Assembly (NCBI RefSeq): GCF_011057685.1
Contig: NZ_LNFY01000001.1
Location: forward strand, 186,001 to 250,000
From: Thermotoga sp. Ku-13t
GTDB taxonomy: Bacteria > Thermotogota > Thermotogae > Thermotogales > DSM-5069
Direction of reading: 5' to 3'
Length of the DNA: 64,000 bases
Shown: positions 1,364-17,482 of the stretch, in pieces
How the letters are laid out: each line of letters starts with the position of its first letter
How positions within the stretch are numbered: position 1 is the first letter of the stretch
Notes under the pieces: model-generated
Databases searched by the model: none
The model's input: the letters and a program-made list of their open reading frames with translations, nothing else
What the model was told of the DNA's origin: nothing
Translations under genes and position numbers: made by a program

Positions 1364-2578
1364 TTGAGGAGAGACCCAAAACGCTCGGATGGGAAGAAAA
1401 CCTTCTCCGACCTGCTCAGCTCAGCCTTGGAACTCTTCGCAACGCACGGTTATCATGCTGTCTCCGTTCCCATGATTTCGAAAAAGGCAGGTGTGAAACC
1501 CCCAACTTTCTACCAGTATTTCAACAGTAAAGAGAGCGTTCACGAAAAGTTGATCCAGGAAGCGTTCAACCTCTTTGTGAGCAGCATGAGTACCATCAAC
1601 GATGAAAATCCCAGATCACTCGTCGAAACCTTCATAAAGGCGTACGCCGCGTTCTTTTCAAACCACTTTCAGCATTTTCGCATCCTCCACGAAGCTGTCT
1701 ATTTGAAGAGAAACCTCAAAAGAAAACTCGATCAGGTTCTGAGGACCAAGGTTGTGGAAAAACTCTTACCTTACGCCGAAGAGAAAGAAAAAAAAGTGGC
1801 TACATGGTTCGTCACCGGACCGATCAGGTTCGCGTGTATATTCAGATCCCTCGTGGAAGAACGGTCGATCGAAGAAACGATGGTTGAAGACTTCGTGGAG
1901 CTCATCACCAGCGGCATCGATCCGGACGATCACGTTCTGGACAGCCGTGTTTTCGATGTGGATGTGAAACCCCTCATTGTTGAAACCAGTTCAACCAAAA
2001 CACGGTTGCTTCAGGCGGCTGAAAAGCTCTTCGGAAAGTACGGCTATCGGAACACGATGGTGAGTGATATCACAAAACTGGCGAGCGTTGCGGCTGGCAC
2101 TTTTTACGTGTACTTTCAGAGCAAGGAATCCATACTCGAAGAACTCGTGATGTCCACGAACAGGAACCTGAGGCTCACCATTGCGAGTGCGATTAAAGGT
2201 TTCGCCGACAGACGTGACGCAGAAATAGCGGGTTACAGCGCGTTCTTGAAATTCTTCCTGAACCATCCCAGCATGTACTCGGTCGTCAGGCAGGCCGAGT
2301 TTTTTAACCCCAGCATTTCGCGGACGTACTACGAGAAAATCTTCAACAGTTACCTCCCTCCGCTGAACAGGGCGATCGAGCTGAACATGATCAAGCCTCT
2401 CAGAGCCACAAATCTTGCGGTTGCGCTCATGGGCATTGGTCATTTCATGGGAGAAGACCTTGTCGTCTACAGCAAGACGTCCCTGTCTCAGATCAACGAT
2501 TATCTCTTCCTCCTGGCGCGCTACCTTTTCAAGGGTGTAGGGCTTGAAAAAGTGAGAACGAGCAACAGCGCGCAATAA
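1364..2578 (+). CDS. Tandem TetR-family regulator (two TetR units in one chain)
   Basis: This 404-residue protein has two TetR DNA-binding heads. The first spans about residues 11-62 and ends in the helix-turn-helix signature PPTFYQYFNSKESV. The second spans about 208-258 with the matching AAGTFYVYFQSKESI. Each is followed by an all-helical stretch of about 140-150 residues of the ligand-binding type. Ordinary TetR proteins have about 200 residues, so this is a head-to-tail duplication or fusion in an uninterrupted frame. Translation probably starts at TTG 1364, behind AGGGGGA. It lies directly upstream of the large transport/CoA island in the same direction and is the obvious candidate to control it; an inverted repeat sits over the next gene's promoter. 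The ligand is unknown. Confidence 0.85.
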   Translation: MRRDPKRSDGKKTFSDLLSSALELFATHGYHAVSVPMISKKAGVKPPTFYQYFNSKESVHEKLIQEAFNLFVSSMSTINDENPRSLVETFIKAYAAFFSNHFQHFRILHEAVYLKRNLKRKLDQVLRTKVVEKLLPYAEEKEKKVATWFVTGPIRFACIFRSLVEERSIEETMVEDFVELITSGIDPDDHVLDSRVFDVDVKPLIVETSSTKTRLLQAAEKLFGKYGYRNTMVSDITKLASVAAGTFYVYFQSKESILEELVMSTNRNLRLTIASAIKGFADRRDAEIAGYSAFLKFFLNHPSMYSVVRQAEFFNPSISRTYYEKIFNSYLPPLNRAIELNMIKPLRATNLAVALMGIGHFMGEDLVVYSKTSLSQINDYLFLLARYLFKGVGLEKVRTSNSAQ

Positions 2579-2717: not shown

Positions 2718-2748
2718 GACTGCTGGTTCACTTTACAGGAGGGGAAGC

Positions 2749-3780
2749 ATGCGAGATCACGTGGGCGTAGCCGGGATAGGAACGTACCTTCCGAAACGGT
2801 ATTTGAGTGCGAAAGAACTGGCCTCGCTGACCGGTATCGACGAAAAGGTTATCGTGGAAAAGTTCGGAATCAAAGGCAAATACGTTCCAGCAGAAGATGA
2901 CACCACGAGTCATATGGGCATCATGGCCGCAAGGGAAGCGATCAAAAACGCACGGATCGATCCAGAAGAGATAGATGTTGTTATCTGGAACGGTGCGCAG
3001 CACAAAGATTACCCCTGCTGGCTCGCCTGTGCGAAGGTTGCTCATGAAATCGGTGCGAAGCGTGCCTGGGCGTTCGACATGGAAGCGATGTGTGGTTCGA
3101 TGATTGTGGGACTTCAAGTGGCGAGGTCCATCATGTTGAGCGAGAAGAACGTGAACACAGTTTTGCTGGTGAGCGGTTATCGAAACGTTGATCTAGTGAA
3201 TCATTCGTACAAACCGACCTCTTTCATGCTCGACATAGGTGCAAGCGGTGCGGCCGTGGTGCTCAAGAAGAATCTGGGTGAGAACATCCTTCTGGGTGTC
3301 TCGAGCATCGTTGACGGTTCCTTTGCAGAAGATTGTATCGTACCAGTCGGAGGCACGAAAAAGTGGCCGGTGAAGCCCGAAGATCTCGACGAGTATTATT
3401 TTCATCTCGTGGATCCCGAATCCTTCAAAGAGAGATTGAACAGCGTCACGTTGAAGAACTTCTATTCGGTGATAGATGACGCTCTGATGAAGAGCGGATT
3501 TTCCCGCAAAGACATATCGTACCTCGCCATACTCCATTTCAAGAGATCGGCACACCTTGAGGTACTGGCTGAACTTGGTTTGAAAGAAGACCAATCTTTC
3601 TACCTCGAAGGTTACGGTCACATGGGACAGAACGATCAGATCTTTTCGTTGCAGGAGGGTTTGAAATGCGGAAAGATCAAAGATGGTGATGTGATCGTCC
3701 TAGTGGGGGCGGGCGTGGGCTGGACGTGGAACGCGGCGGTCCTGAAATGGGGAAAGATGAGAGAGCCCATCATGTGGTGA
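2749..3780 (+). CDS. KAS-III-like (FabH/HMG-CoA-synthase superfamily) condensing enzyme
   Basis: This is a 343-residue thiolase-superfamily protein. The start is ATG 2749 behind GGAGGGGAA; the frame is open upstream to 2620, but that stretch holds the promoter. The nucleophilic cysteine is visible in MEAMCGSM (about Cys115). The histidine position reads HFKRSAH rather than HQAN. The loop that carries Asn in true FabH reads YGHMGQND, so Asn is replaced by His. A glycine-rich C-terminal segment (VLVGAGVGWTW) is present. These changes argue against a housekeeping fatty-acid starter role and suggest a divergent acyl-CoA condensing or thiolytic enzyme. It is the first gene of the island, just before a CoA-transferase. 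The exact reaction is unknown. Confidence 0.75.
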   Translation: MRDHVGVAGIGTYLPKRYLSAKELASLTGIDEKVIVEKFGIKGKYVPAEDDTTSHMGIMAAREAIKNARIDPEEIDVVIWNGAQHKDYPCWLACAKVAHEIGAKRAWAFDMEAMCGSMIVGLQVARSIMLSEKNVNTVLLVSGYRNVDLVNHSYKPTSFMLDIGASGAAVVLKKNLGENILLGVSSIVDGSFAEDCIVPVGGTKKWPVKPEDLDEYYFHLVDPESFKERLNSVTLKNFYSVIDDALMKSGFSRKDISYLAILHFKRSAHLEVLAELGLKEDQSFYLEGYGHMGQNDQIFSLQEGLKCGKIKDGDVIVLVGAGVGWTWNAAVLKWGKMREPIMW

Positions 3781-3792
3781 GGGGGAACGAAC

Positions 3793-5094
3793 ATGGACTG
3801 GCGAGAAGTTTACAGGAAAAAACTCGTCGATATTGACAAAGTGCTAGATCTCGTTCAGAGCAACCATACGATAGTCGTCGGAATGGCGCCGATGGAACCC
3901 AAAATCTTCCTACGAAACCTCCACAGGGTCGCAGATAGGGTTGAGAACGTAACTGTGTTCACCTGTCTCAACATGGAGGAGTATCCGTTCTACATGAGTG
4001 AGAGATACAGCAAAAGTTTCCAGAACGCATCCTGGTACTTCGGTGCCTCGAACAGACAGGCGGTGAAGAACAACTACGGAACGGTCAGTTACGTTCCGAA
4101 CAACCTTCATCAGGCGGGAACGAACCTTCTGGACAGCAGAGATATCGACCTCTTCGTGGGTGTCGCTTCCCCCATGGACAAAAACGGTTTTCTCACACTA
4201 TCAGCATCGATCGTCTACGAAAAGGATGTGATGGAGAGAGCCAAAAAGGTGGTGCTCGAGGTCAACCCCAGGGCGCCGAGAACTCATGGAGATACCCAGG
4301 TTCACATCAGCGAGGTAGACTACGTGATCGAGGTCGATTATGACTTACCGGAGGCTGAACTCGCTGAGCCAACGGACGTTGAATCGAAAATAGCCCATCA
4401 CGTCAGTGAACTGATCGAAGACGGTTCCACCATCCAGATAGGCATCGGTGGGATACCAAACGCCGTTGCGAAATTGCTCTCCAGTAAGAAGGATCTGGGT
4501 GTTCACACGGAGATGTTCACCGAGTCCATGATAGACCTTTTCGAAATGGGGGTGATAACGAACAGAAAGAAAACTTTGTGGAAGGGTAAGTTCGTCTGTA
4601 CGTTCGCTTTCGGCACGAAGAGGCTCTACAATTTCGTGGATGACAACCCCTCGGTGATGTTCCTGCGCGGAAGGTATGTGAACGATCCGTACGTGATCGC
4701 ACAGAACGAAAAGATGGTGAGCATCAACACGGCGCTCATGGTGGATCTGACAGGAAACGTCTGCTCCGAAGCTCTGGGCACACAGCATTACAGTGGAACC
4801 GGTGGGCAACTCGATACCCACAGGGGAGCGGTGAAGAGTAAAAACGGTAAAGGTATCATCGCTTTGAGATCGACCGCAAAGAATGGCACCATTTCAACGA
4901 TCGTGCCACTGTTGCCGCAGGGTTCTCCCATCACCGTTCCAAGGCAAGAATTGGACTACGTTGTCACCGAATGGGGCATCGCGCACGTCAGGGGAAAAAC
5001 CGTGAAGGAAAGAACACTGGAACTCATCTCTGTCGCTCATCCAAATTTCAGGGAAATGCTGCAATTCGAAGCCAGGAAACTGGGTTTAATTTGA
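3793..5094 (+). CDS. Acetyl-CoA hydrolase/CoA-transferase family protein
   Basis: This 433-residue protein belongs to the Cat1/4-hydroxybutyrate CoA-transferase family, which moves CoA between acetyl-CoA and other short carboxylic acids. It has the CoA-binding motif IQIGIGGIPNAV (about residues 214-225), the segment MFTESMIDLFEMG with the likely catalytic glutamate near residue 244, and SGTGGQLD near the C-terminus. The length is normal for the family. The start ATG 3793 lies 12 bp after the preceding stop and follows GAGGGGGAA. Its place between a KAS-III-like enzyme and a Liv-type transporter suggests it activates an imported acid to its CoA ester. The substrate is not readable from sequence. 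Confidence 0.85.
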   Translation: MDWREVYRKKLVDIDKVLDLVQSNHTIVVGMAPMEPKIFLRNLHRVADRVENVTVFTCLNMEEYPFYMSERYSKSFQNASWYFGASNRQAVKNNYGTVSYVPNNLHQAGTNLLDSRDIDLFVGVASPMDKNGFLTLSASIVYEKDVMERAKKVVLEVNPRAPRTHGDTQVHISEVDYVIEVDYDLPEAELAEPTDVESKIAHHVSELIEDGSTIQIGIGGIPNAVAKLLSSKKDLGVHTEMFTESMIDLFEMGVITNRKKTLWKGKFVCTFAFGTKRLYNFVDDNPSVMFLRGRYVNDPYVIAQNEKMVSINTALMVDLTGNVCSEALGTQHYSGTGGQLDTHRGAVKSKNGKGIIALRSTAKNGTISTIVPLLPQGSPITVPRQELDYVVTEWGIAHVRGKTVKERTLELISVAHPNFREMLQFEARKLGLI

Positions 5095-5110: not shown

Positions 5111-6337
5111 ATGAAGAAAATCGTGGTCTCACTACTGATCTTGTTCGCAGTTTTGAGTTTTGCGCGAACCATCAAGATTGGAGCCGTTCTGCCGCTATCC
5201 GACATAACGGGAAGGCAAGCCGCGAACGCCATGAAGTTGGCGGTGAAGGAAGTCAACGAAGCAGGCGGTGTGCTCGGCATGCAACTGGAACTGTTCATCG
5301 TTGACGATGAGATGAAGCCAGAGAAGGGAGCTGCTGCGATCGACAGGCTCGCCACGGTAGAAAAAGTCGATTTCTTCGTCGGAGGAATGTCTAGCAGCGT
5401 GCATTTGGCACAGATTCCCATACTGAAAAAATACCAGAAGATAACAGTTTGGATAGGTGCTGCGTCCTACAAGTGTGAGGAAGCGATAGGACCAGATGCA
5501 GATTGGTACTTTCATTTGCACCCATGGGATTATCTGCAGGGTGAAAGCTATGCACACGGCTGGCGGGCGATCACAGAAAAGTATCCTCAAGTGAAGATCG
5601 AAAAGATCTTCCTGGCTTACGAAGAAGGCGCCTTCGGAACGAGCTCGTTCAAATCGTATCAGGACGAGTTCGAACTCGCAAAGAAGGGAACGGGAGTTTG
5701 GACCGGCTTGATGAAGGACCTCAAGGGTGCATCTTTCAAGAGTGCGGCGCTCGGAGGAGGAGACTACAGGGCGGTCCTTCTTCAGGCGAAACAGTACGAT
5801 CCTGACCTGTTCATCTGGGCCGGTTACGATGCCGACGCGATACCGATCCTCGTTCAGGCCAAGGAGATAGGTTTCGCACCCAAGCTGTTCGTCGGAGCGC
5901 CTCCGGGATGGCCGGCAGGTTTTGGTAAGAACCCGCTCTCCCATGGTGTCATTCTGTACGGCATGTGGGCACCCACTCTGAAAGATGTCAGTCCCGTCGC
6001 AAAACGCTTCTGGGATGCGTACGTCAAGGAATTCAACGAAGAACCGGCAACGTACTTCGCTCCACTCGGATATACCAACATAATGTTCCTCGTTGAGGGC
6101 ATCAAGAAAGCTGGCTCGCTCGACAAAGAAGCTATCATCAAAGCACTAAGAGAAATCGAGTACGATTCGCCGGTTGGAGGAGTTCTCAAGATCTCACCGA
6201 GCAGGATCATCAAGAACCAAGGTTTCAGGGCCCAGAAGATCTTGCAATGGCAGAACGGCGTGCAGCACGTCATCTGGCCTTTTGAGTATCAAACGGCGGA
6301 ATTGATCTATCCTTTCCCAGGTTGGGAAGGTAGGTAA
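5111..6337 (+). CDS. Liv-type ABC transporter substrate-binding protein 1
   Basis: A 408-residue exported protein of the type I periplasmic-binding fold (Peripla_BP_6, the LivJ/LivK family). The N-terminus is a clear signal peptide: two lysines, about 13 hydrophobic residues and a small-residue cleavage region near residue 18. The mature protein begins with a beta-strand reading TIKIGAVLPLSD, as in this family. It would capture solute outside the membrane and deliver it to the LivHM permease encoded next. Family members bind branched-chain amino acids, amides, urea, or aliphatic and aromatic acids. With a CoA-transferase and KAS-III enzyme alongside, an organic acid is as likely as an amino acid. 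A strong stem-loop follows the stop codon. Confidence 0.9.
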   Translation: MKKIVVSLLILFAVLSFARTIKIGAVLPLSDITGRQAANAMKLAVKEVNEAGGVLGMQLELFIVDDEMKPEKGAAAIDRLATVEKVDFFVGGMSSSVHLAQIPILKKYQKITVWIGAASYKCEEAIGPDADWYFHLHPWDYLQGESYAHGWRAITEKYPQVKIEKIFLAYEEGAFGTSSFKSYQDEFELAKKGTGVWTGLMKDLKGASFKSAALGGGDYRAVLLQAKQYDPDLFIWAGYDADAIPILVQAKEIGFAPKLFVGAPPGWPAGFGKNPLSHGVILYGMWAPTLKDVSPVAKRFWDAYVKEFNEEPATYFAPLGYTNIMFLVEGIKKAGSLDKEAIIKALREIEYDSPVGGVLKISPSRIIKNQGFRAQKILQWQNGVQHVIWPFEYQTAELIYPFPGWEGR

Positions 6338-6343
6338 TTCGTA

Positions 6344-6366
6344 TGGCTGGGCCCAGCGCCCAGCCA
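6344..6366 (+). other. Stem-loop after the first binding-protein gene
   Basis: A 9 bp perfect stem, TGGCTGGGC (6344-6352) with GCCCAGCCA (6358-6366), encloses a 5-base loop 7 bp after the binding-protein stop. No U-tract follows, so it is probably an mRNA-stabilising or partial-termination structure that keeps binding-protein mRNA in excess over permease mRNA. Confidence 0.65.
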
Positions 6367-6394
6367 TTATCGACTTCGAAAGAGGTGGAAGGAT

Positions 6395-7309
6395 GTGAAC
6401 AAGAAAACGATCGGCTACATAGTTTTAGTTGTTGTGCTTTTCCTCGTTGCGTTGTTGAGACCGTACGCTTTTTTCTACGGCTTGCAGAGGGGCAGTCTCT
6501 ACGGTCTGGTTGCTCTGCCCCTGGCGCTCATACTCGGCATCGTTGGGCTTTTGAATCTGGCTCACGGTGAATTTTTGACGCTGTCACTTTATCTCACTTA
6601 CGTCCTTTTCAACAAGTTTGGAGTGGACCCAGCTGTTTCTTCTCTGTTAACGTTTCCCATCCTCTTTGTTTTCGGGCTGCTCGTGTACAAACTTGTCATA
6701 GAGAGATCCTTGAAATCCCACCATCTCAACCTTCTGCTCTTAACGTTCGGCGTCTCCATAGTCATGGTCGAATCGTTCAACATCCTGTGGACTTCCAGAC
6801 CCAGGAACATATACACACCCTACGCAACGACATCGATCAAGGTTTTTGGCATCCACGTGGGTGCGTACGAGTTCGTCTACACACTCTTAGCGTTCCTCGT
6901 GCTGGCCGGATTGCTCGTTTTCTTGAAGAGGACACGCTTGGGGCAGGCAACCTACGCAGTTGGACAGAACCCGAAAGGTGCAGCTCTGGTGGGCATCAAC
7001 GTTAAACTGGTGTATGCGTTCGTGTTCGGTCTTTCGGCGGCACTGGTGGCACTTGCAGGATCATTTCTGTCTGTGAGGAGCTCCATCTTCCCGCAGGCTG
7101 GGGGACCATTCACGATGAAATCTTTCAGCTTGACAGCGATGGCGGGCCTGGGGAATCTCTTCGGTATAGTGCTTGCTGGTATTGTGCTCGCGATCGCTGA
7201 GGAAGTTGTGAAATCCATACCAGATTATGCGGGCTGGGCAGACCTGGTGTTCTTCGCTGTGCTAATAATCGCGATCGTCGTCAGGGCTTTTGGGAGGAGA
7301 GAGGGATGA
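6395..7309 (+). CDS. livH: Liv-type ABC transporter permease LivH (transporter 1)
   Basis: A 304-residue integral membrane protein with about eight hydrophobic segments. It carries the LivH hallmark GIVGLLNLAHGEFLTLS near the N-terminus and the coupling-loop region TRLGQATYAVGQNPKGAALVGIN that contacts the ATPase. The start is GTG 6395. The 3' end overlaps the next permease gene by ATGA. It forms the membrane channel with LivM. The substrate follows from the binding protein and is not known. Confidence 0.9.
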   Translation: MNKKTIGYIVLVVVLFLVALLRPYAFFYGLQRGSLYGLVALPLALILGIVGLLNLAHGEFLTLSLYLTYVLFNKFGVDPAVSSLLTFPILFVFGLLVYKLVIERSLKSHHLNLLLLTFGVSIVMVESFNILWTSRPRNIYTPYATTSIKVFGIHVGAYEFVYTLLAFLVLAGLLVFLKRTRLGQATYAVGQNPKGAALVGINVKLVYAFVFGLSAALVALAGSFLSVRSSIFPQAGGPFTMKSFSLTAMAGLGNLFGIVLAGIVLAIAEEVVKSIPDYAGWADLVFFAVLIIAIVVRAFGRREG

Positions 7310-8223
7310 GAATGAGATACATCTTTATACCAGCGATATGCGTGCTGTGCTTTGTGCTGCCCTTCTTCATCGACGCCTATCTCGTGCACGTGTTCACTTC
7401 GATCATGATCTTTCTATCCCTGTCCTTGAGCTGGGACATGATGCTGCGAACGGGCCAGCTCTCTTTTGGAATAGCCGGTTTCTTTGGCCTTGGTGCCTAC
7501 GCTTCGATCATAGCTGTTGACGATTTTTCCGTTCATCCCATGTTGAGCATCTTTGTTGCTGCAGTCTTTGCAGCCCTCGTGGCCTTCACCCTTGGATGGA
7601 TAGTACTGAGGCTCAGGGAGATCTACTTCGCCATAACGACACTCGCTCTTTCCAGCGTTTTCATGATCTTTGCGAGGAACCTGAGCGATCTCACCGGTGG
7701 TTCTGCAGGAAAGGTGCTCTACGAATCGATTTTTGGTGGAGATCCCATCAAAACTTACTGGCTCGTTCTTTCGGTGACACTCGCTGTGGTCCTGCTGTCG
7801 GAAATTTTTCAGAGAAGCAGGATTCGCTTTGCGATCAACTCCATAAGGGATGATGAGATCGCGGCGAAGTGTTCTGGTGTGAACATTTTCAAATATCTTT
7901 TGTTCGTCTTCGTGCTCACATCGGCTATTCAGGGTGCGGTGGGCGCACTTTATGCTCAGCAGTACGCGTTCGTGGAGCCAGAAAGCACTTTTTCTGCAAA
8001 CTTTCTGCTGCTCCCGATGTCGATGGCGCTGGTTGGTGGCATCTATTCGACCATCGGTCCAATAATAGGTGCCCTCGCTCTCGGGCTGGCTTCGGAATAC
8101 CTCAAGTTGCTCATGCCCTACGGGCATCTGATCATCTACGGTTTGATCCTCATCGTGACGATACTGTTTTTACCGAGAGGCGTTTATGGAACCATCACCG
8201 AGAAAATGGCAAAGAAGAGGTAG
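7306..8223 (+). CDS. livM: Liv-type ABC transporter permease LivM (transporter 1)
   Basis: A 305-residue membrane protein, the second permease half. Family features are GQLSFGIAGFFGLGAYASI near residue 50, the coupling segment SRIRFAINSIRDDEIAAKCSGVN, and a C-terminal FLPRGVYGTI where LivM proteins normally end. Unlike the LivM of transporter 2 it stops there, with no extra domain. The start ATG overlaps the stop of livH, indicating translational coupling. Confidence 0.9.
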   Translation: MRMRYIFIPAICVLCFVLPFFIDAYLVHVFTSIMIFLSLSLSWDMMLRTGQLSFGIAGFFGLGAYASIIAVDDFSVHPMLSIFVAAVFAALVAFTLGWIVLRLREIYFAITTLALSSVFMIFARNLSDLTGGSAGKVLYESIFGGDPIKTYWLVLSVTLAVVLLSEIFQRSRIRFAINSIRDDEIAAKCSGVNIFKYLLFVFVLTSAIQGAVGALYAQQYAFVEPESTFSANFLLLPMSMALVGGIYSTIGPIIGALALGLASEYLKLLMPYGHLIIYGLILIVTILFLPRGVYGTITEKMAKKR

Positions 8224-8236
8224 GAGGTCCGATGCC

Positions 8237-8950
8237 GTGCTTTTGAGAACACAGCGACTGACAAAGAGTTTCGGAGGTTTAGTGGCTGTCAAGCAGGTAG
8301 ATCTTCAGATCGAATCGGGTGAGATACTGGGCATCATAGGCCCAAACGGGGCAGGCAAAACCACGCTGACAAATCTCATATCAGGTGTCTTCTATCCGAA
8401 CGAGGGGTGCATCTACTTCGAAGAGAAAGACATCACCTTCGTGCCAGCCCATCTGCGGGCACGCATGGGCATAGCGAGAACCTTTCAGCTGGTGAGGCCG
8501 TTGAGGGATTTCACCGCTTTCGAAAACGTCATGGTTTCATGCTTGTTTGCGAAAGGTGATTCTTTGCGGCAGGCGCGTGAGACTGCAAGGAAGATATGTG
8601 ACATGGTGGGCCTTGAAAAGGCCGATAGACGTCTGGACAAGCTCACCGTGTTCGAGCTGAAAAAACTCGAGATTGCCAGAGCACTTGGTTGTCAACCCAG
8701 GCTACTGATCCTTGACGAGGTCATGGCTGGTCTAAACTTTGAAGAGATGCAGAGTGTGATAGCACTGGTGAAATCTCTGAGGGAGAGGCAGATAACGATC
8801 TGTGTGATCGAACACGTGATGAGCGTGATAAGTCAGCTCACGGATCGAGTGGTGGTCCTCGACAGAGGCGAGATCATCGCTGAGGGTCCTTACGAGAAAG
8901 TGGCTCACGATCCAAGAGTCATCAGCGCTTATCTCGGGGAGGAAACGTGA
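8237..8950 (+). CDS. livG: Liv-type ABC transporter ATPase LivG (transporter 1)
   Basis: A 237-residue cytoplasmic ATPase. Walker A is GPNGAGKTT and Walker B LLILDEVMAGL; His in the switch segment VIEHVMSV is visible. The signature region reads LTVFELKKLEIARAL, where most ABC proteins have LSxGQ; LivG proteins often diverge here. The best start is GTG 8237, 8 bp after TAGGAGGT; the longer open frame from 8186 would overlap livM by 38 bp. It pairs with LivF to power the permease. Confidence 0.88.
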   Translation: MLLRTQRLTKSFGGLVAVKQVDLQIESGEILGIIGPNGAGKTTLTNLISGVFYPNEGCIYFEEKDITFVPAHLRARMGIARTFQLVRPLRDFTAFENVMVSCLFAKGDSLRQARETARKICDMVGLEKADRRLDKLTVFELKKLEIARALGCQPRLLILDEVMAGLNFEEMQSVIALVKSLRERQITICVIEHVMSVISQLTDRVVVLDRGEIIAEGPYEKVAHDPRVISAYLGEET

Positions 8951-9657
8951 TGTTGAAGATAGAAAGTCTGAACGCTGCCTACGGGAGGATACGGGTTCTC
9001 TGGGACGTTTTTCTCGAGGTGAACGAAAAGGAAGCTGTTGGATTGTTCGGTCCCAACGGGGCCGGTAAAACCACCCTCGTAAACTGCATCGTTGGACTTC
9101 TGAGACCGATCTCCGGGAGGATCATCTTTCAGGACAGAGACATAACTGGCATGGAAACGCACGAAATCGTCAAACTTGGAATCTCTCTGGTGCCACAGGA
9201 GCGTGAACTCTTTCCCGGAATGACGGTTGAGGAAAATCTGAGGGCCGGAGCAAACTACATCCCACATGCGCGTGCGAGGATGAACGAAGCCTTCGACCTG
9301 GTGTTCACACTGTTTCCGATCTTGAAGGAGAGGTCCAGGCAAAAAGTTGGTACGATGAGTGGTGGCCAACAGAGAATGATTGCCGTTGCGAGGGCGTTGA
9401 TGTCATTTCCAAAGCTGTTGATACTCGATGAACCATCCGTTGGTCTACAGCCTTCCATCGTATCGGAATTGTTTTCGAAATTGCGCGAGATAAAAGATCA
9501 TGGGGTCTCGATCCTACTCATAGAACAGAACGTCAAGCAGGGTTTAAAGGTTGTTGAGAGAGGCTACGTTCTCGAAAACGGTAGAATAGTGTTGCAGGAC
9601 TCTTCTGCCAACCTGATGAATCACGGTCATGTTAAAAAAGCCTATCTCGGTCTGTAG
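8947..9657 (+). CDS. livF: Liv-type ABC transporter ATPase LivF (transporter 1)
   Basis: A 236-residue ABC ATPase with Walker A GPNGAGKTT, signature MSGGQQRM, Walker B LLILDEPSVGL, and the LivF-typical LVPQERELFPGMTVEENLRAGA. The frame begins GTG-ATG (8947 and 8950); either codon could initiate, and the GTG overlaps the livG stop. It ends the first transporter set (binding protein, H, M, G, F), which is complete and in the usual order. Confidence 0.9.
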   Translation: MMLKIESLNAAYGRIRVLWDVFLEVNEKEAVGLFGPNGAGKTTLVNCIVGLLRPISGRIIFQDRDITGMETHEIVKLGISLVPQERELFPGMTVEENLRAGANYIPHARARMNEAFDLVFTLFPILKERSRQKVGTMSGGQQRMIAVARALMSFPKLLILDEPSVGLQPSIVSELFSKLREIKDHGVSILLIEQNVKQGLKVVERGYVLENGRIVLQDSSANLMNHGHVKKAYLGL

Positions 9658-9672: not shown

Positions 9673-10419
9673 ATGAGGCTGGAAGGAAAAGTGTGCATCA
9701 TCACGGGTGCGGCGAGCGGGATTGGCAGAGCGGCAAGCTTGCTGTTCGCCAAAGAGGGAGCAACTGTCTGCGCGTGCGACGTTTCCGAACAGGCATTGAA
9801 CAAACTCGTCGAGGATGCAAGGGGTCTTCCCGGTTCCATCGATCCCTACGTGCTCGACGTGACGAACAGGGAGCAGGTCTTCAAAACCGTTGAGCAGATC
9901 GCAACGAAGTATGGGAAGATCGATGTTCTTGTGAACAACGCAGGAATAACCAGAGACGCTCTGCTCGTCAAGATGACCGAGGAAGAATGGGACGCGGTGA
10001 TCAACGTCAACCTGAAAGGCGTTTTCAACATGACACAGGCGGTCGCACCGTACATGATCAAGGCTCAGAAAGGTTCGATCATCAACACCTCCTCCGTCGT
10101 GGGCATCTATGGGAACATCGGTCAGACCAACTACGCGGCGACCAAGGGTGGAGTCATAGCGATGACGAAGACATGGGCAAAGGAGCTCGCGCGCAAGGGT
10201 GCGCAGATAAGGGTGAACGCAGTCGCGCCTGGTTTCATCAGAACGCCCATGACAGAAAAGGTTCCTGAAAAGGTCATAGAAGCCGTGCTGAGCAGGACTC
10301 CATTGGGACGCATGGGTGAACCCGAAGAAGTGGCGTACGTCTATCTGTTCCTTGCGAGCGACGAATCGTCCTTCGTCACGGGTCAGGTGATAGGCGTCGA
10401 TGGAGGTCTAACGTTCTGA
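9673..10419 (+). CDS. Short-chain dehydrogenase/reductase, FabG-like
   Basis: A 248-residue classical SDR. It has the NAD(P)-binding motif TGAASGIG (residues 10-17), NNAG, the catalytic serine in NTSSVVG, the YxxxK pair in YAATKGG, and the C-terminal VTGQVIGVDGGLTF usual for FabG. It should interconvert a 3-oxoacyl and a 3-hydroxyacyl thioester or a similar alcohol/ketone pair. The SD AAAGGAG precedes ATG 9673. It lies between the two transporters, so it is probably an enzyme of the island's pathway, for example oxidising a 3-hydroxy acid derivative, rather than the housekeeping FabG. Confidence 0.88.
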   Translation: MRLEGKVCIITGAASGIGRAASLLFAKEGATVCACDVSEQALNKLVEDARGLPGSIDPYVLDVTNREQVFKTVEQIATKYGKIDVLVNNAGITRDALLVKMTEEEWDAVINVNLKGVFNMTQAVAPYMIKAQKGSIINTSSVVGIYGNIGQTNYAATKGGVIAMTKTWAKELARKGAQIRVNAVAPGFIRTPMTEKVPEKVIEAVLSRTPLGRMGEPEEVAYVYLFLASDESSFVTGQVIGVDGGLTF

Positions 10420-10444: not shown

Positions 10445-11605
10445 GTGAAGAAGACGTTCGCTGCGCTGATGTTGCTGACCGCGCTCTTCGTGTTCGCAGA
10501 AGTTGGTGTCTATCCAGACAAGATCGTAGTTGGAACCTTCCAGGCTCTCTCCGGGCCGTACGCCGTGATAGGTCAGGAGATGTCCAAGGGTTTGCTCGCC
10601 TACTTCAACTGGGTCAACAAGAACGGCGGAGTTTACGGCAGGAAGATCGAGCTCATCATAGCGGACGATCAGCTCAACCCAACCAAGACCGTCGTTGAGG
10701 TCAAGAGACTCGTCGAGTCTGACAAAGTCTTCGCGATCGTTGGAGGTCTCGGCACCTATGGCTGTCTCGCCGTCATGGACTATCTGGAACAGAACAAGGT
10801 GCCATTCGTCTACCAGGGTGCCGGTACGAGCTTGTTGGTGGTCCCACCGAAAAGGTACATCTTTGGGGTTCAGCCGGACTACACGCTCGAAGGGCAATTG
10901 ATCGCGAAGTTCCTTGTCGAGAACCTGAAAAAGAAGAAGGTCGGGGTAATCTACATGGCCAACGACGTTGGTAAAGAGGGCCTGGCCGCGGTGAAGATGA
11001 GGCTTGAAAAGTACGGCATGAAACCCGCTTTAGAGATCGCTTACAACCCGCTTGAAACCGACTACAGTGCCCTGGCGATAAACGTTCTGAACGTTTCACC
11101 GGATGCCATCGTGATATACGGTTTCATCACAGACACCGTCAGGTGGATCAAAACTCTGAGAGATTATGGAGTGAGTGCCGACATCGTCACAACCTACGCC
11201 AACGCCGATCCGAGTTTCATAAACCTTGCGGGTAAGTACGCCGAAGGTGTGTACCTGACCGGGTGGGTCCCGCTGCCGACACCGGACCGACCGGAATTCG
11301 TCAGGGACTATCAGAGGGCGGTCGCGATATTTCAAGAAAGCTATCCGAACCAGATCATGTCCTCCTACGCGGTTGCCGGTTTCATAGCCGCCGAGGTGTT
11401 CGTTGCCGGTCTGGTCAAAGCAGGTCCAGATCTGACGAGGGAAAAGCTTGTTGAAACGCTCGAAACGTTCAGAAACTGGAACGGCATTCTGGCCAAAGAC
11501 ATCACCTGGGGTCCGGGACTGAGAAGGGGTAAATCGACAATGTACTTCATGAAGATCGAAAACGGTGTATTCACACCGGTCACAGATCTGATAGGACTCG
11601 ACTGA
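10445..11605 (+). CDS. Liv-type ABC transporter substrate-binding protein 2
   Basis: A 386-residue exported binding protein (Peripla_BP_6). The signal peptide covers about residues 1-18, and the mature part opens with DKIVVGTFQALSGPY. By eye it is clearly divergent from binding protein 1, so the two transporters probably take different though related solutes. The start is GTG 10445 behind GAGGGGGGA. The stop codon is the start of a strong stem-loop. Confidence 0.9.
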   Translation: MKKTFAALMLLTALFVFAEVGVYPDKIVVGTFQALSGPYAVIGQEMSKGLLAYFNWVNKNGGVYGRKIELIIADDQLNPTKTVVEVKRLVESDKVFAIVGGLGTYGCLAVMDYLEQNKVPFVYQGAGTSLLVVPPKRYIFGVQPDYTLEGQLIAKFLVENLKKKKVGVIYMANDVGKEGLAAVKMRLEKYGMKPALEIAYNPLETDYSALAINVLNVSPDAIVIYGFITDTVRWIKTLRDYGVSADIVTTYANADPSFINLAGKYAEGVYLTGWVPLPTPDRPEFVRDYQRAVAIFQESYPNQIMSSYAVAGFIAAEVFVAGLVKAGPDLTREKLVETLETFRNWNGILAKDITWGPGLRRGKSTMYFMKIENGVFTPVTDLIGLD

Positions 11606-11646: not shown

Positions 11647-12417
11647 TTGGCGCTGTTGAAGATAGAATCGCTCACGGTTCGCTTCGGTGGCCTTGTGGCG
11701 GTGGACAGCTTTTCGATGAGCGTTCAAAAAGGAACGATCCATTCCCTCATCGGACCCAACGGGGCTGGAAAGACGACGGTTTTCAACGCGATAACTCGTG
11801 CCGTGAAGGTTCATTCTGGAAGTATTGAACTCGACGGTGTGGAGCTGACGCGTGTTCTGCCGCACCGGATCGTTTCAATGGGTGTTGCGAGGACCTTCCA
11901 GAACGTCGCGGTGTTCAGATACCTCACCGTGCTGGACAACCTTTACCTCGGATACCACCACAGGATCGAAGGAGGATTGCTGAGCGATCTGGTTTTGACG
12001 AAACGCAGGCTCGTTCAAAGTTACGAAATGTACAGGGAGGCTTTAAAAATTGCGGATTTTCTCAACCTGAAGAGTCGATTGCTGAGTTATGCGGGTACCA
12101 TACCTTACTTCTATCAAAAGCTGGTCGAGATAGGCCGCGCTTTGATGGCGAAACCAAAACTGTTGCTTCTGGACGAACCTGCCGCTGGACTCAACGAGGT
12201 GGAGACGGACCAGCTTGTGAACATCATAAGGCGCATCAAGGATGAGCTGGGGATCACCGTTCTACTTATCGAGCATGACATGCGTGTGGTGATGGATATC
12301 TCTGACATGGTGACCGTGATGGATTTTGGAAAGAAGATCTCTGAAGGTCTTCCGCACGAGGTTCAAAAAGATTCAAAGGTGATAAGTGCTTATCTGGGAG
12401 AGATACAGGGTGCTTGA
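11647..12417 (+). CDS. livG: Liv-type ABC transporter ATPase LivG (transporter 2)
   Basis: A 256-residue ABC ATPase starting at TTG 11647 behind TGGGGGAA. Walker A is GPNGAGKTT and Walker B LLLLDEPAAGLNEVE, with the LivG-type segment VARTFQNVAVFRYLTVLDN. The signature region (YFYQKLVEIGRAL) again diverges from LSGGQ. Gene order in this set (binding protein, G, F, H, M) differs from transporter 1 (binding protein, H, M, G, F), so the pair did not arise by a simple recent tandem duplication. Confidence 0.9.
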   Translation: MALLKIESLTVRFGGLVAVDSFSMSVQKGTIHSLIGPNGAGKTTVFNAITRAVKVHSGSIELDGVELTRVLPHRIVSMGVARTFQNVAVFRYLTVLDNLYLGYHHRIEGGLLSDLVLTKRRLVQSYEMYREALKIADFLNLKSRLLSYAGTIPYFYQKLVEIGRALMAKPKLLLLDEPAAGLNEVETDQLVNIIRRIKDELGITVLLIEHDMRVVMDISDMVTVMDFGKKISEGLPHEVQKDSKVISAYLGEIQGA

Positions 12418-13111
12418 GGTCAAGAACGTGACCGTCACGTATGGTCCCGTGGTCGCTGTGAAGAGTGTTTCTCTGAGGGTGGAGAAAAACTCCATCGTGG
12501 CGATCCTTGGAGCGAACGGCTCGGGGAAGACGTCTTTGCTCCACGCGATTGTTGGATTGAACAGTATCGCTTCGGGCGAAATACTCTTCAATGGTGAACG
12601 TATCGACAGACTCGAGGCGCACGAGATCATCAAGCGCGGTCTGGTTCTCTGCCCCGACAACAGGATGGTCTTTCAGAAAATGAGTGTGCTGGAGAATTTG
12701 CTGGCTGGTGCTTATCTGAGAAAGGAAGATCTGTCTCAAGATTTTGATTTCGTCTTCAACCTCTTTCCAAGACTCAAGGAACGCTTGAAACAGAAGGCAG
12801 GAACCCTTTCGGGAGGAGAACGACAGATGCTCGCCATCGCCAGAGCACTAATGGCGAAACCGAAACTGCTCATGCTGGATGAGCCTTCCACGGGGCTGGC
12901 GCCGAACCTGGTGAGCGAGATCATGAAGGCGATAAAGCAGATAAACGAGCTCGGCATAACGATCCTCCTGGTCGAACAGAGTGCCTACGCAGCTCTGAAA
13001 ATCGCCCATTACGCTTACGTGCTCCAAACCGGCAGGCTGGTCATGGAAGGACCTTCTGAACAGCTCATCAAGGACAGTTCGGTGATTCAAAGCTATCTGG
13101 GGGGAAGATGA
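12410..13111 (+). CDS. livF: Liv-type ABC transporter ATPase LivF (transporter 2)
   Basis: A 233-residue ABC ATPase with a GANGSGKTS P-loop, signature LSGGERQML and Walker B LLMLDEPSTGLAP. I start it at GTG 12410, which has GGGAGA 8 bp upstream and overlaps the end of livG. The open frame extends to GTG 12386 without a good SD. Confidence 0.88.
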   Translation: MLEVKNVTVTYGPVVAVKSVSLRVEKNSIVAILGANGSGKTSLLHAIVGLNSIASGEILFNGERIDRLEAHEIIKRGLVLCPDNRMVFQKMSVLENLLAGAYLRKEDLSQDFDFVFNLFPRLKERLKQKAGTLSGGERQMLAIARALMAKPKLLMLDEPSTGLAPNLVSEIMKAIKQINELGITILLVEQSAYAALKIAHYAYVLQTGRLVMEGPSEQLIKDSSVIQSYLGGR

Positions 13112-13990
13112 GTGCTCCTGAACAGGATCGTCCTTGGATTGTCGAGTGGAAGTTTTTATTCGCTCGCGGCGATCGGTATTGTGCTCATCTTCAAGGTGAC
13201 AGGTTTGATGAACTTCGCGTACGGAAACATGGCCATGTTCATGGTGTACGTCACGTACACACTAGTTTCGTTGGGTCTCGGCCCCTGGTCCGCACTCGTC
13301 GTTGTGATAGCCGTCAGCATGCTCTTTGGTTATGCCGTGGAACGTTTCACCCTGAGACCCCTGCGGAAGCTTTCACACGGTTCCATGCTCATAGTCACCT
13401 TCGGACTGCTCATGATCCTGGAAGGGCTCGCGACGCAAATATGGGGCACGCAGTACAGATCGTTGCCAGAACTGATAACTGGTAGACCCTTCGTCTTGAG
13501 GGGTAGCTTCGGCATAGTTGTGTTCAGAAGGCAGGATTTACTTCTGCTCGCAGTCCTTGTGATCGTCTCTCTGACGATCTTTCTTCTGTACAGGTTCACC
13601 AAGATAGGCATCGCGATGCGCGCCGTCTCGGAGAACGAGAAGGCGGCCCAGTTGATGGGCATCAATCCGAACAGGGTGATCAGTTACTCTTGGATGGTTG
13701 GAACCGCCATCGGAACGCTGGTGGCCGTGCTTGGTGCTCCGAGAACTTACGTCGCTCCGACGATGATGATCTACTACCAGCTGCAGGGCTTCACCGCGGC
13801 CGTTCTGGGTGGTTTCGACAGCCTGCTGGGAGCCGTATGCGGAGGGCTCGCGCTGGGCGTGATAGAGAATCTGATAGGTGGTTACATAAGCAACGAGCTG
13901 AAGACGACGCTCTCTCTGGCGATCATCGTGATCATACTCTTGATCAGACCTCAGGGCATGTTCGGCAGTGAAGAGATCAGGAGAGTGTGA
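13112..13990 (+). CDS. livH: Liv-type ABC transporter permease LivH (transporter 2)
   Basis: A 292-residue membrane protein with multiple hydrophobic segments. Family features are TGLMNFAYGNMAMFMVYVTY near the N-terminus and TKIGIAMRAVSENEKAAQLMGIN at the ATPase-coupling loop. The start GTG 13112 lies directly after the livF stop, with GGGGGGAAGA as SD. It forms the permease with the fused LivM encoded next. Confidence 0.9.
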   Translation: MLLNRIVLGLSSGSFYSLAAIGIVLIFKVTGLMNFAYGNMAMFMVYVTYTLVSLGLGPWSALVVVIAVSMLFGYAVERFTLRPLRKLSHGSMLIVTFGLLMILEGLATQIWGTQYRSLPELITGRPFVLRGSFGIVVFRRQDLLLLAVLVIVSLTIFLLYRFTKIGIAMRAVSENEKAAQLMGINPNRVISYSWMVGTAIGTLVAVLGAPRTYVAPTMMIYYQLQGFTAAVLGGFDSLLGAVCGGLALGVIENLIGGYISNELKTTLSLAIIVIILLIRPQGMFGSEEIRRV

Positions 13991-13994
13991 AGCC

Positions 13995-15692
13995 ATGAAA
14001 TGGTTACTGCTCGCTGTCCTTTTCGTTGTGCCGCTTTTGCCCAGGATCAGTGGCTTTGTGTTGACTCTCTTGAACTTGACGCTGATTTATTCGGTGGCAG
14101 CGATGGGTCTGAACCTGATCATGGGCTATGCTGGACAGATCTCCATAGGTCATGCGGCTTTCATGAGTGTTGGTGCCTACACTTCTGCGATCCTCGTGCA
14201 ACGCTTTTCCGTACCCATTCCTTTCTCGATCCTCGCCGCTGTAATCTTCGGAGCGATCTTCGGCATGATTTTAGGTTTTCCCGCGTTGAGATTGAAGGGT
14301 TTTTACCTGGCGATAGTGACGATGGGGTTCGCCGTGGCGATAGAGCAACTTTTCGGTGCCTTGGAGAAACTCACCGGCGGACACATCGGAATGAGGAACA
14401 TCAAGCTCTTCGGTAGTGACGCGGTGAGTTATTACGTTAACCTCGTGATCCTTCTGATCTGTTTCTATCTGTTCCGACTCATCGTCGCTGGGAAAACGGG
14501 AAAGGCGCTCGCGGCGATCAGGGAAAACGAACTGGTTGCTCGCATCTTCGGTGTCAACCTGACCTATCACAAAGTTGTGGCGTTCAGCGTGGGTTCGGCA
14601 TTCGCGGCGCTCGCCGGGGCCCAATACGCGCACACGATAGGTTACATAGCCCCGAGCCTCTTTGGCCTTTCCAAATCTCTGGATTTGCTCGCGATGGTGG
14701 TGATCGGTGGTTTAGCTTTAGAGATCGGACCGTTTTTCGGTGCGGCGCTGTACACCGTTCTTCCTTTCCTTTTCAGCAGGAGTGGTTTTTCGCTCTCGAT
14801 AATCTTCGGAGCGATACTCATCATCACGGTTCTGTTCATGCCGCGTGGTATCGCTTATTACGCGATGAACTTCTGGTTGATGTGGGGAGAATTGCCCATC
14901 GTCTGGCTCAAGAGAAAGCTAGGAAAGCCATTCGGCAAGTTCGTTGAAACGTCGTTCGGGCGGATACACTACGTGGAAGCCGGTGAAGGAAGACCGCTGA
15001 TATGCATCCACGGGAACTTCGGTTCGCTGAGATGGTTCGAACCCATTCTGGGGAAAATCCAGAATTTCAAAACCATCGCGCTGGACCTGCCGAACTTTGG
15101 TTTCTCCGACAGAAACACCCCGAGTATCGAAACCTACACTAGGGCTGTTGAAGAATTCATTGAAAGGCTCAATTTGAACAATGTCGTGGTTCTCGCGCAC
15201 TCTCTCGGTGGAGCTGTGGGTATGAAGTTGGCTCTCGAAAGGCCAGATCTCGTCGAAGCTTTGATTTTAGTTGATCCGTGTCCTATCGATGGCTTACCCA
15301 CACCGACTGAGAATCTTGCCTATCTGGAATTCTACAGGAGGAACAGATCGATCCTGAGAAGGTCTCTCTACGGTCTGTTGAAGATCGTGAAAGATAGAAA
15401 GTTCGTTGAGCAGCTGGTCGACGATGCTTTGAAAATGAATCCAGATTCGGTGTACGCGCACGCGGAGGAACTGACAAAGTTCAACCTCACAGACCGCGTG
15501 GCTGATTACCGTGTGAAAACGTTGCTGGTGTGGGGAGACATGGATCCACTGCTGACGCGCGAGCAGATGGAGAGAACGGCGAAGTGTTTGAATGCCGAGT
15601 TCGTTGTGTTCAACAGCCTGGGGCACACTCCATTCGTTGAAGCGCCGGTTGTTTTTCTGGAAAAAGTTGAAAACTTTTTGAAGGGGGTGTGA
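13995..15692 (+). CDS. livM: LivM permease fused to an alpha/beta-hydrolase
   Basis: This 565-residue protein is a complete LivM followed in the same frame by a complete alpha/beta-hydrolase. Residues 1 to about 290 are LivM: GYAGQISIGHAAFMSVGAY at 44-62, the coupling loop TGKALAAIRENELVARIFGVN at 168-188, and the usual end FMPRGI. A ~25-residue amphipathic link leads to the hydrolase at about 316-565. That domain has the oxyanion region HGNFGS, the nucleophile elbow AHSLGGA (Ser403), a likely acid in GDMDPLL (Asp517) and His544 in GHTPFVE. There is no stop, SD or start between the parts. I start it at ATG 13995, 9 bp after AGGAGAG. The hydrolase would sit at the cytoplasmic mouth of the permease, positioned to cleave substrate as it enters; that role is inference. 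Confidence 0.88.
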   Translation: MKWLLLAVLFVVPLLPRISGFVLTLLNLTLIYSVAAMGLNLIMGYAGQISIGHAAFMSVGAYTSAILVQRFSVPIPFSILAAVIFGAIFGMILGFPALRLKGFYLAIVTMGFAVAIEQLFGALEKLTGGHIGMRNIKLFGSDAVSYYVNLVILLICFYLFRLIVAGKTGKALAAIRENELVARIFGVNLTYHKVVAFSVGSAFAALAGAQYAHTIGYIAPSLFGLSKSLDLLAMVVIGGLALEIGPFFGAALYTVLPFLFSRSGFSLSIIFGAILIITVLFMPRGIAYYAMNFWLMWGELPIVWLKRKLGKPFGKFVETSFGRIHYVEAGEGRPLICIHGNFGSLRWFEPILGKIQNFKTIALDLPNFGFSDRNTPSIETYTRAVEEFIERLNLNNVVVLAHSLGGAVGMKLALERPDLVEALILVDPCPIDGLPTPTENLAYLEFYRRNRSILRRSLYGLLKIVKDRKFVEQLVDDALKMNPDSVYAHAEELTKFNLTDRVADYRVKTLLVWGDMDPLLTREQMERTAKCLNAEFVVFNSLGHTPFVEAPVVFLEKVENFLKGV

Positions 15693-15696
15693 ATCG

Positions 15697-16680
15697 ATGA
15701 AGTACGCCAGGATAATCTCTTCGGGCAGGTATGTACCCGGCAAGATCATGACGAACCAAGAATTCGAGCGACTGGTTCACGTCACGATCGATCCTTACTT
15801 CACCGAGCAGATCGGGATCAACCACAGACACCTCTCCAGTGAGGAAGAAACACCAACGTTCATGGCGGCCGAGGCTGCAAAGAGGGCGCTCGAAAGGATC
15901 AACATGAAACCGGAGCAGATCGACCTGATTATCGTCGGCACGGACACCCCGGAGGCCATTTCGCCACCGGATGCCGCGAGGGTTCAGTACCTGATCGGCG
16001 CGCACAGGGCCGAACCGTTAGCGTTCAACGTCAACGCTTCGTGTGCTAACGGAGCTCTGCTGCTGGACATCGCCTCGCGCTACATCGCACTGGGAGATTA
16101 CAGGAACGTTCTGGTGATAGGCGTGTACGCCATGACTAAGTTTTTGAGCTGGAAATATTCGTGGGAGGCACTTTTCTCGGACGGAGCGGGCGCACTGATC
16201 CTCACCGCCGCCGACGAGCCAGGATATCTGGGAAGCGTTGCGCGGTGCGATGGTAGCTGGTGGTATAACTGGGGCATATACATGGGCGCGGGCACGATGA
16301 ACCTCAACGGTTTCGAGAGAGGTTTACACAAGCTCGACCTGCGCTCGGCGTACCCGGCGACTGTGAACGAAGAAGGCTGGCCAATGCTTTTGAACCGTCT
16401 CATGCAGAAGTGTAATTTCGTGAAAGAAGACATTGGCATGATCTTCTTCACCCAGGTAAGGAAGAAGACCATACAGAAGGTCATGGAAACGATGGGTCTG
16501 CCAGAGGAGAAGGCGCACATGATCATGCACAAGTATGGTTACACAGGCTCCGCGTGCGTCTACATGGCTTACGACGATGCGTACGATGAGGGGAAACTCG
16601 AAGGATTACAAGGGAAAGTCATCATCTTCCTGACCTCTGGAGTGGGCTATCAACAGGTTGCGGTGGCGTTCAGAATGTGA
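15697..16680 (+). CDS. Second KAS-III-like (FabH-related) protein with altered active site
   Basis: A 327-residue thiolase-superfamily protein. The nucleophile region VNASCANGALL (Cys116) is FabH-like. The histidine site reads FFTQVRKKT and the Asn loop reads YGYTGSACVYMA, so the usual His and Asn appear to be Gln or Val, and Tyr. The C-terminal glycine motif LTSGVGYQQVAVAF is kept. The protein can probably form an acyl-cysteine, but decarboxylative condensation by the normal FabH triad is doubtful. It starts 4 bp after the fused LivM-hydrolase and overlaps the frame upstream of the next hydrolase, so it belongs to the same transcript. Confidence 0.75.
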   Translation: MKYARIISSGRYVPGKIMTNQEFERLVHVTIDPYFTEQIGINHRHLSSEEETPTFMAAEAAKRALERINMKPEQIDLIIVGTDTPEAISPPDAARVQYLIGAHRAEPLAFNVNASCANGALLLDIASRYIALGDYRNVLVIGVYAMTKFLSWKYSWEALFSDGAGALILTAADEPGYLGSVARCDGSWWYNWGIYMGAGTMNLNGFERGLHKLDLRSAYPATVNEEGWPMLLNRLMQKCNFVKEDIGMIFFTQVRKKTIQKVMETMGLPEEKAHMIMHKYGYTGSACVYMAYDDAYDEGKLEGLQGKVIIFLTSGVGYQQVAVAFRM

Positions 16681-16690
16681 GGTGGAAGTA

Positions 16691-17482
16691 ATGTTCAAGA
16701 CTTCTGACGGTGTTGAGATCGATTACGAATTCCACCCGGGCCAGGGAGATGTGGTCGTTTTCTTGAACGGGATCTTCATGAACATGAGAAGCTGGGATTT
16801 TCTGTCCAGGGACCTCAGGGATCGCTACTCGCTGTTGCTGCACAATTTCAGATGCCAGTGGTCTTCATCGAACGGGGCATGTTCTTTCGAAAGGCACGTT
16901 CAGGATCTGAAAGAGCTCTGCGACTTTCTGAAGATAGATCGTTTCCACCTGGTCGGTACCTCGTACGGTGCGGAGGTTGGGATGCTCTTCGCGGCAGAAT
17001 ATCCTGAAACGGTCAAAAGCCTCGTGGTCATAACGGCCACAGCGCGTGTGACTCCCCACATCCGTAACTGTGCGTTGCGCTGGAGAACAGGAGCCGAGAC
17101 GAAAGATCCCACCAAATTCGTGATCAGCTGGCTGAACGATGTCTACAGCGAAGATTTCCTGGACTCACACCCAGAACTTTTAAATTCCATCATTTCACGC
17201 ATGGAGGACTTCAACTACGAAGGTGCCGTGATGTTGCTCGATTCTTTCCTCCGAATGGAGCGCTCACCGATTCTGGAAGAACTCGGAAAGATAGAGTGTC
17301 CCACGCTTGTGGTGTACGCCGAGTACGATAGAATCAAACCACCGCGGTTTTCACACGAAATCGCCGCGTACATCAAAAACTCCGTTCTCGTCTGCGTACC
17401 GGACTCGGGTCACGCCGTGGTGATAGAAAAACCAAGAACGATCTCTTACTTAGTCAGGGCGCATCTGAGTTCATTCGCCTGA
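16691..17482 (+). CDS. Alpha/beta-hydrolase (stand-alone)
   Basis: A 263-residue hydrolase of the MhpC/3-oxoadipate-enol-lactonase type. It has FLNGIFMNMRSWDF near the N-terminus, the nucleophile elbow GTSYGAEVG (Ser at about residue 97), an acid in YAEYDRI and His in SGHAVVIE. The start ATG 16691 follows GAGGTGGAAGT. It is the last gene of the island and runs 12 bp into the convergent cutA. It probably cleaves an ester, thioester or C-C bond; the substrate is unknown. Confidence 0.82.
   Translation: MFKTSDGVEIDYEFHPGQGDVVVFLNGIFMNMRSWDFLSRDLRDRYSLLLHNFRCQWSSSNGACSFERHVQDLKELCDFLKIDRFHLVGTSYGAEVGMLFAAEYPETVKSLVVITATARVTPHIRNCALRWRTGAETKDPTKFVISWLNDVYSEDFLDSHPELLNSIISRMEDFNYEGAVMLLDSFLRMERSPILEELGKIECPTLVVYAEYDRIKPPRFSHEIAAYIKNSVLVCVPDSGHAVVIEKPRTISYLVRAHLSSFA

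Follow-up and report, generated by a model that had tools for sequence, protein, structure and literature searches.

The locus raises the question of whether a LivM-type permease and an alpha/beta-hydrolase that share one reading frame constitute a genuine protein, and what a hydrolytic enzyme attached to an importer would act upon. The window analysed is a 64,000-nt stretch of DNA, in which the open reading frame at 13995-15692 (+ strand) encodes 565 amino acids with no internal stops, in agreement with the original prediction of a permease and a hydrolase without a stop between them. The ATG at 13995 is preceded by AGGAG 11 nt upstream, and the LivH gene ends at 13990. Residues 22-277 match Pfam BPD_transp_2 (PF02653) at 130.1 bits, above the cut-off of 26.8, and residues 334-551 match Abhydrolase_1 at 85 bits, above the cut-off of 25.8. 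The parts of the fused gene are:

13995..14852, + strand, LivM-type (BPD_transp_2) permease domain, residues 1-286 (Pfam PF02653, 130 bits; AF2 model pLDDT 88)
14853..14927, + strand, linker, residues 287-311 (helix 286-308 after the last transmembrane segment; ends basic, KRK; dN/dS 0.03-0.13)
14928..15689, + strand, alpha/beta-hydrolase domain, residues 312-565 (Abhydrolase_1, 85 bits; fold match to 8ynv PhaZ, E 2e-15)
15009..15017, + strand, HGN oxyanion motif, residues 339-341 (invariant, 20 homologues)
15201..15203, + strand, catalytic Ser403 (invariant, 20 homologues)
15543..15545, + strand, catalytic Asp517 (invariant, 20 homologues)
15624..15626, + strand, catalytic His544 (invariant, 20 homologues)

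The LivM part reaches its predicted end at FMPRGI (residues 281-286), and the hydrolase is intact as claimed, with Ser403 in AHSLGG and Asp517 and His544 in standard motifs; the triad and the HGN oxyanion loop do not vary across 20 aligned fused homologues. The NCBIfam LivM model for the high-affinity branched-chain amino acid permease (NF008450) was matched at 137.7 bits and failed its cut-off of 366, and the permease part, searched against PDB sequences, returned no matches.

A survey of 103 Thermotogota genomes (homologue threshold E<=1e-45) found a homologue in 66, with both parts in one frame in 53 as counted from the survey table, 42-93% identical where aligned. The other 13 are g26 genomes with two genes (n=4), g31 genomes with the hydrolase part only (n=8) and G030, in which the gene is broken. 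The fused frame is also present in several Spirochaetota MAGs, two Bacillota MAGs and Marinitoga lauensis, and the close relatives, for which two separate genes had been considered, are fused in both the same genus and the same family. Between the source genome and two congeners, the pairs in which dN/dS was estimable (a third congener pair was saturated), the permease and the hydrolase gave values of 0.06-0.13 and the linker values of 0.03-0.13, and all three parts are under purifying selection (dN/dS <0.14). The joining of two genes by a sequencing or assembly frameshift is rejected as extremely improbable, without recourse to reads, because the same frame occurs in more than 50 assemblies and dN/dS across the junction, including that of the linker, is well below 1; linker length is conserved as well. 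The fusion of importer subunit and hydrolase is genuine. No earlier description of this conserved fusion was found in the open-access literature, which also held nothing relevant on permease-hydrolase fusions, on hydroxybutyrate import by such transporters or on ABC import coupled to ester cleavage; the statement that no described example was known is borne out within that literature, itself weak evidence of absence. Plasmid records contained no clear fusion, the one weak match (21.8% identity, 80% query cover) being annotated as an ATP-binding cassette protein.

The fused permease shares its operon with a further permease, a pair of ATPases and a substrate-binding protein, all within a larger gene cluster:

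1364..2578, + strand, tandem TetR-type regulator (conserved in cluster)
2746..3780, + strand, KASIII-like protein KS1 (NF005308/PRK06840, 479.5 bits, cut-off 315)
3793..5094, + strand, 4-hydroxybutyrate/butyryl-type CoA-transferase (PDB 9vag/3eh7, E 1e-102 or better)
5111..9657, + strand, second Liv system LivJ1-H1-M1-G1-F1 (inside the same cluster)
9673..10419, + strand, FabG-like SDR (TIGR01830, above cut-off)
10445..11605, + strand, LivJ substrate-binding protein (Peripla_BP_6, 227 bits)
11647..12417, + strand, LivG ATPase (operon, conserved neighbour)
12386..13111, + strand, LivF ATPase (operon, conserved neighbour)
13112..13990, + strand, LivH permease partner (operon, conserved neighbour)
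15697..16680, + strand, KASIII-like protein KS2 (Cys kept; FabH His and Asn absent)
16688..17482, + strand, Hyd2, a second, stand-alone alpha/beta-hydrolase (profile match, cluster comparison)

Stretches of about 14-20 kb around 32 fused genes were compared, and LivJ, LivG and LivH were each present in all 32 and LivF in 30. KASIII-like proteins and tandem TetR regulators were found near 28 each, a CoA-transferase near 23, a FabG-like SDR near 18, a second hydrolase near 12 and a thiolase near 10. The thiolase of the source genome lies outside the cluster (C1:614 kb) and shares 72% identity with the thiolase found in the G024 operon. The CoA-transferase is nearest to 4-hydroxybutyrate CoA-transferases. 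The triad of KS1 is Cys-His-His, with His at the FabH Asn position, KS2 retains only the Cys, and both departures are conserved across clusters; judged by these residues neither is an ordinary FabH, because KS1 has His for Asn and KS2 is without His and Asn. The second full LivJHMGF set (5111-9657) is kept in the genus and in the larger part of the family.

The content of the cluster argues for a substrate other than Leu, Ile or Val. The system is read, with a probability of about 0.5, as a LivHMGFJ-type importer with a cytosolic-face esterase, which would import short hydroxyacyl esters for breakdown to acetyl-CoA. LivJ would capture a small acyl ester, most likely one formed from a short (3-)hydroxy acid or an oligomer of such an acid, LivHM and LivGF would import it, and the esterase-type hydrolase borne on the cytoplasmic C-terminus of the LivM subunit, and thus tethered at the inner face, would cleave it and leave the free acid trapped. 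The CoA-transferase would then activate the acid, the FabG-like SDR would oxidise the 3-hydroxyacyl-CoA and the thiolase, together with the KASIII-like proteins, would yield acetyl-CoA. The fusion would have arisen once, by the joining of two neighbouring operon genes, and would be kept for 1:1 stoichiometry and membrane location, a hand-over from pore to active site being possible and not required. Consistent with this proposal are the wide distribution of the fused frame (53 Thermotogota genomes, Spirochaetota and Bacillota MAGs) under purifying selection with an invariant triad and a 19-27 aa linker, and the neighbours conserved around 32 loci, with a CoA-transferase of the 4-hydroxybutyrate type; the affinity of the hydrolase, the predicted membrane side, the trees and the unfused Bacillota clusters, described below, also favour it. 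However, the substrate is a putative one, the hydrolase superfamily spans many chemistries, several LivJ relatives in the PDB are named amino-acid binders, the CoA-transferase, FabG and thiolase are absent beside some fused genes, and the proposal gives the KASIII-like proteins no clear role. The covalent tie of an ABC importer to a catabolic enzyme suggests that Liv systems, KASIII-like proteins, CoA-transferase, SDR and thiolase together form an entire uncharacterised uptake pathway, spread over Thermotogota, Spirochaetota, Caldisericota and Bacillota.

The closest match of the hydrolase is the intracellular P(3HB) depolymerase of B. thuringiensis by PDB sequence search, NCBIfam model and fold. 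The two are alike in the Ser-Asp-His triad, but the hydrolase domain differs from this PhaZ (PDB 8ynv) in being only about 25% identical, in its fusion to a permease, in its occurrence in a phylum where no PHA synthase was found, and in failing the model for intracellular short-chain PHA depolymerases (NF050089) with one third of the cut-off score (94.6 vs 300 bits), a shortfall that also weighs against the ester-uptake proposal. A storage-granule role is unlikely because PhaC (PF07167) was absent from all 103 Thermotogota genomes, with a positive Caulobacter control, and Esterase_PHB was absent from the source genome; the lack of PhaC would point to an ester that is imported rather than stored. 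Compared with LivM/HAAT-family permeases (PF02653), the fused protein shares the permease domain and the LivH, LivG, LivF and LivJ partners but has an added C-terminal hydrolase, scores under the NCBIfam LivM cut-off and probably has no branched-chain amino acid as substrate. The same parts, namely unfused LivHMGFJ, alpha/beta-hydrolase, KASIII and CoA-transferase, come together in Bacillus, Clostridium and Alkaliphilus clusters (L095-L116), but there the hydrolase is separate, the gene order is different and the hydrolases are just 21-34% identical.

Modelled with AF2 (mean pLDDT 90, pTM 0.76), the fused protein has a helix at residues 286-308 that runs on from the last transmembrane segment, and the best fold matches of the permease model, none of which reaches E 0.001, are the type II ABC importers PsaB and BtuC. 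Known structures of the PsaB/BtuC type have a cytoplasmic C-terminus. The linker is basic and leads, with no further transmembrane segment, to the hydrolase, which is predicted to be cytosolic because of the type II importer-like fold, the basic linker and the absence of a following transmembrane segment. A periplasmic hydrolase, prompted by signal-like upstream frames in g31 (L118-L121), was rejected, as SD-ATG starts just before the hydrolase leave no signal sequence.

Linker length is 19-27 aa in all 84 fused frames examined, many of them redundant (reference residues 288-311), and by this measure is geometrically constrained. The junction had been described as having neither a Shine-Dalgarno sequence nor a start codon; the former holds, but in-frame ATG codons at 14865 (M291) and 14880 (M296) and a TTG at 14877 are present in the linker. 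None has a Shine-Dalgarno sequence, and an internal start at M291 or M296 of the source gene was rejected on that ground. Among 36 non-redundant fused genes, 12 (L019, L022, L037, L038, L055, L079, L082-L085, L126 and L129) carry, at the linker/hydrolase junction, an in-frame ATG together with a Shine-Dalgarno match of 5-8 nt, against 4.3 +- 1.6 expected from shuffled synonymous codons, an excess that is indicative and gives no probability, the rows being related; elsewhere in the same genes 9 of 585 ATGs have such a match. No junction Shine-Dalgarno and ATG pair occurs among the rows of the source organism's family. Several lineages may make the free hydrolase in addition to the fused form, and the source family would appear, from sequence, to make the fused form only.

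The LivM and hydrolase trees agree, and all fused rows group together. L055, which is fused, is the sister of the unfused g26 rows and belongs to their family, and the hydrolases of g31 lie nested next to fused proteins from their own family; the simplest reading of both trees is one ancient fusion followed by two separations, two independent fusions being a possible alternative for the g26 branch. Further out are the LivM genes of Caldisericota, which are unfused and share the LivJ-G-F-H-M gene order, and then Bacillota, in which the hydrolase is a separate gene inside the same cluster. In genome G063 (L124, 10348-10410) the permease and hydrolase share a frame and are parted only by a short gap that holds a pair of TGA codons and a start of the form GGAGGTG-ATG, which shows how little divides the fused from the separate state. 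In the Mesotoga-like g31 genomes (L118-L121) the separate hydrolase adjoins the other Liv system (Liv1), a thiolase and a CoA-transferase, and LivM2 was not found in the stretches examined.

It is possible, at somewhat less than even odds, that the fusion joins pathway partners only, in the Rosetta-stone manner, the hydrolase acting on an intracellular intermediate and the gains being co-expression and stoichiometry without contact between pore and active site. The renewed separation of the domains in g26 and in g31, where the hydrolase stays with the other Liv system, the free hydrolase suggested by 12 of the 36 junctions and the separate hydrolases of the Bacillota clusters all fit such a partnership, but a loose tether needs no constraint like that on the linker, held at its length down to about 40% identity in several phyla, and the source family has the fused form without a junction Shine-Dalgarno sequence. 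Strict vectorial processing, in which the hydrolase lies under the cytoplasmic gate, cleaves the emerging substrate and so pulls transport, is unlikely. The short, conserved, helical linker directly after the last transmembrane segment would suit it, as would the cytosolic topology and a triad intact in every aligned fused member, but two lineages tolerate separated domains, internal initiation is possible in relatives and the monomer model (pTM 0.76) leaves the pose of the hydrolase within LivHMGF unfixed. It is similarly doubtful that a rigid helical linker docks the hydrolase beneath the LivHM cytoplasmic gate, making import and ester cleavage one coupled step that traps the product. Of the vectorial processing originally predicted, the conserved covalent importer-hydrolase, the intact active site and the constrained linker stand, but hydrolysis on leaving the permease is no more than a possible step, and the two separations, after which the hydrolase stayed in the cluster, and the junction starts speak against a strict coupling. 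A weaker version, a pathway enzyme held at the membrane beside its importer, fits all of these observations. Direct hand-over of substrate from importer to enzyme is testable because the one pair exists in nature in a fused form, in a separated form and possibly in a form that gives two products.

In L082 an 889-aa frame suggested a triple fusion of LivH, LivM and hydrolase, which was rejected, as LivH is in a different frame and the long frame is open by chance. RNA elements or introns were likewise rejected as the cause of the break in copy L044 and of the split in L056, an Rfam search of both giving 0 matches. In G006, one of the 53 genomes counted as fused, a later insertion of about 455 nt (L044, 12737-13192), which has inverted ends and is IS- or MITE-like, breaks up the hydrolase part.
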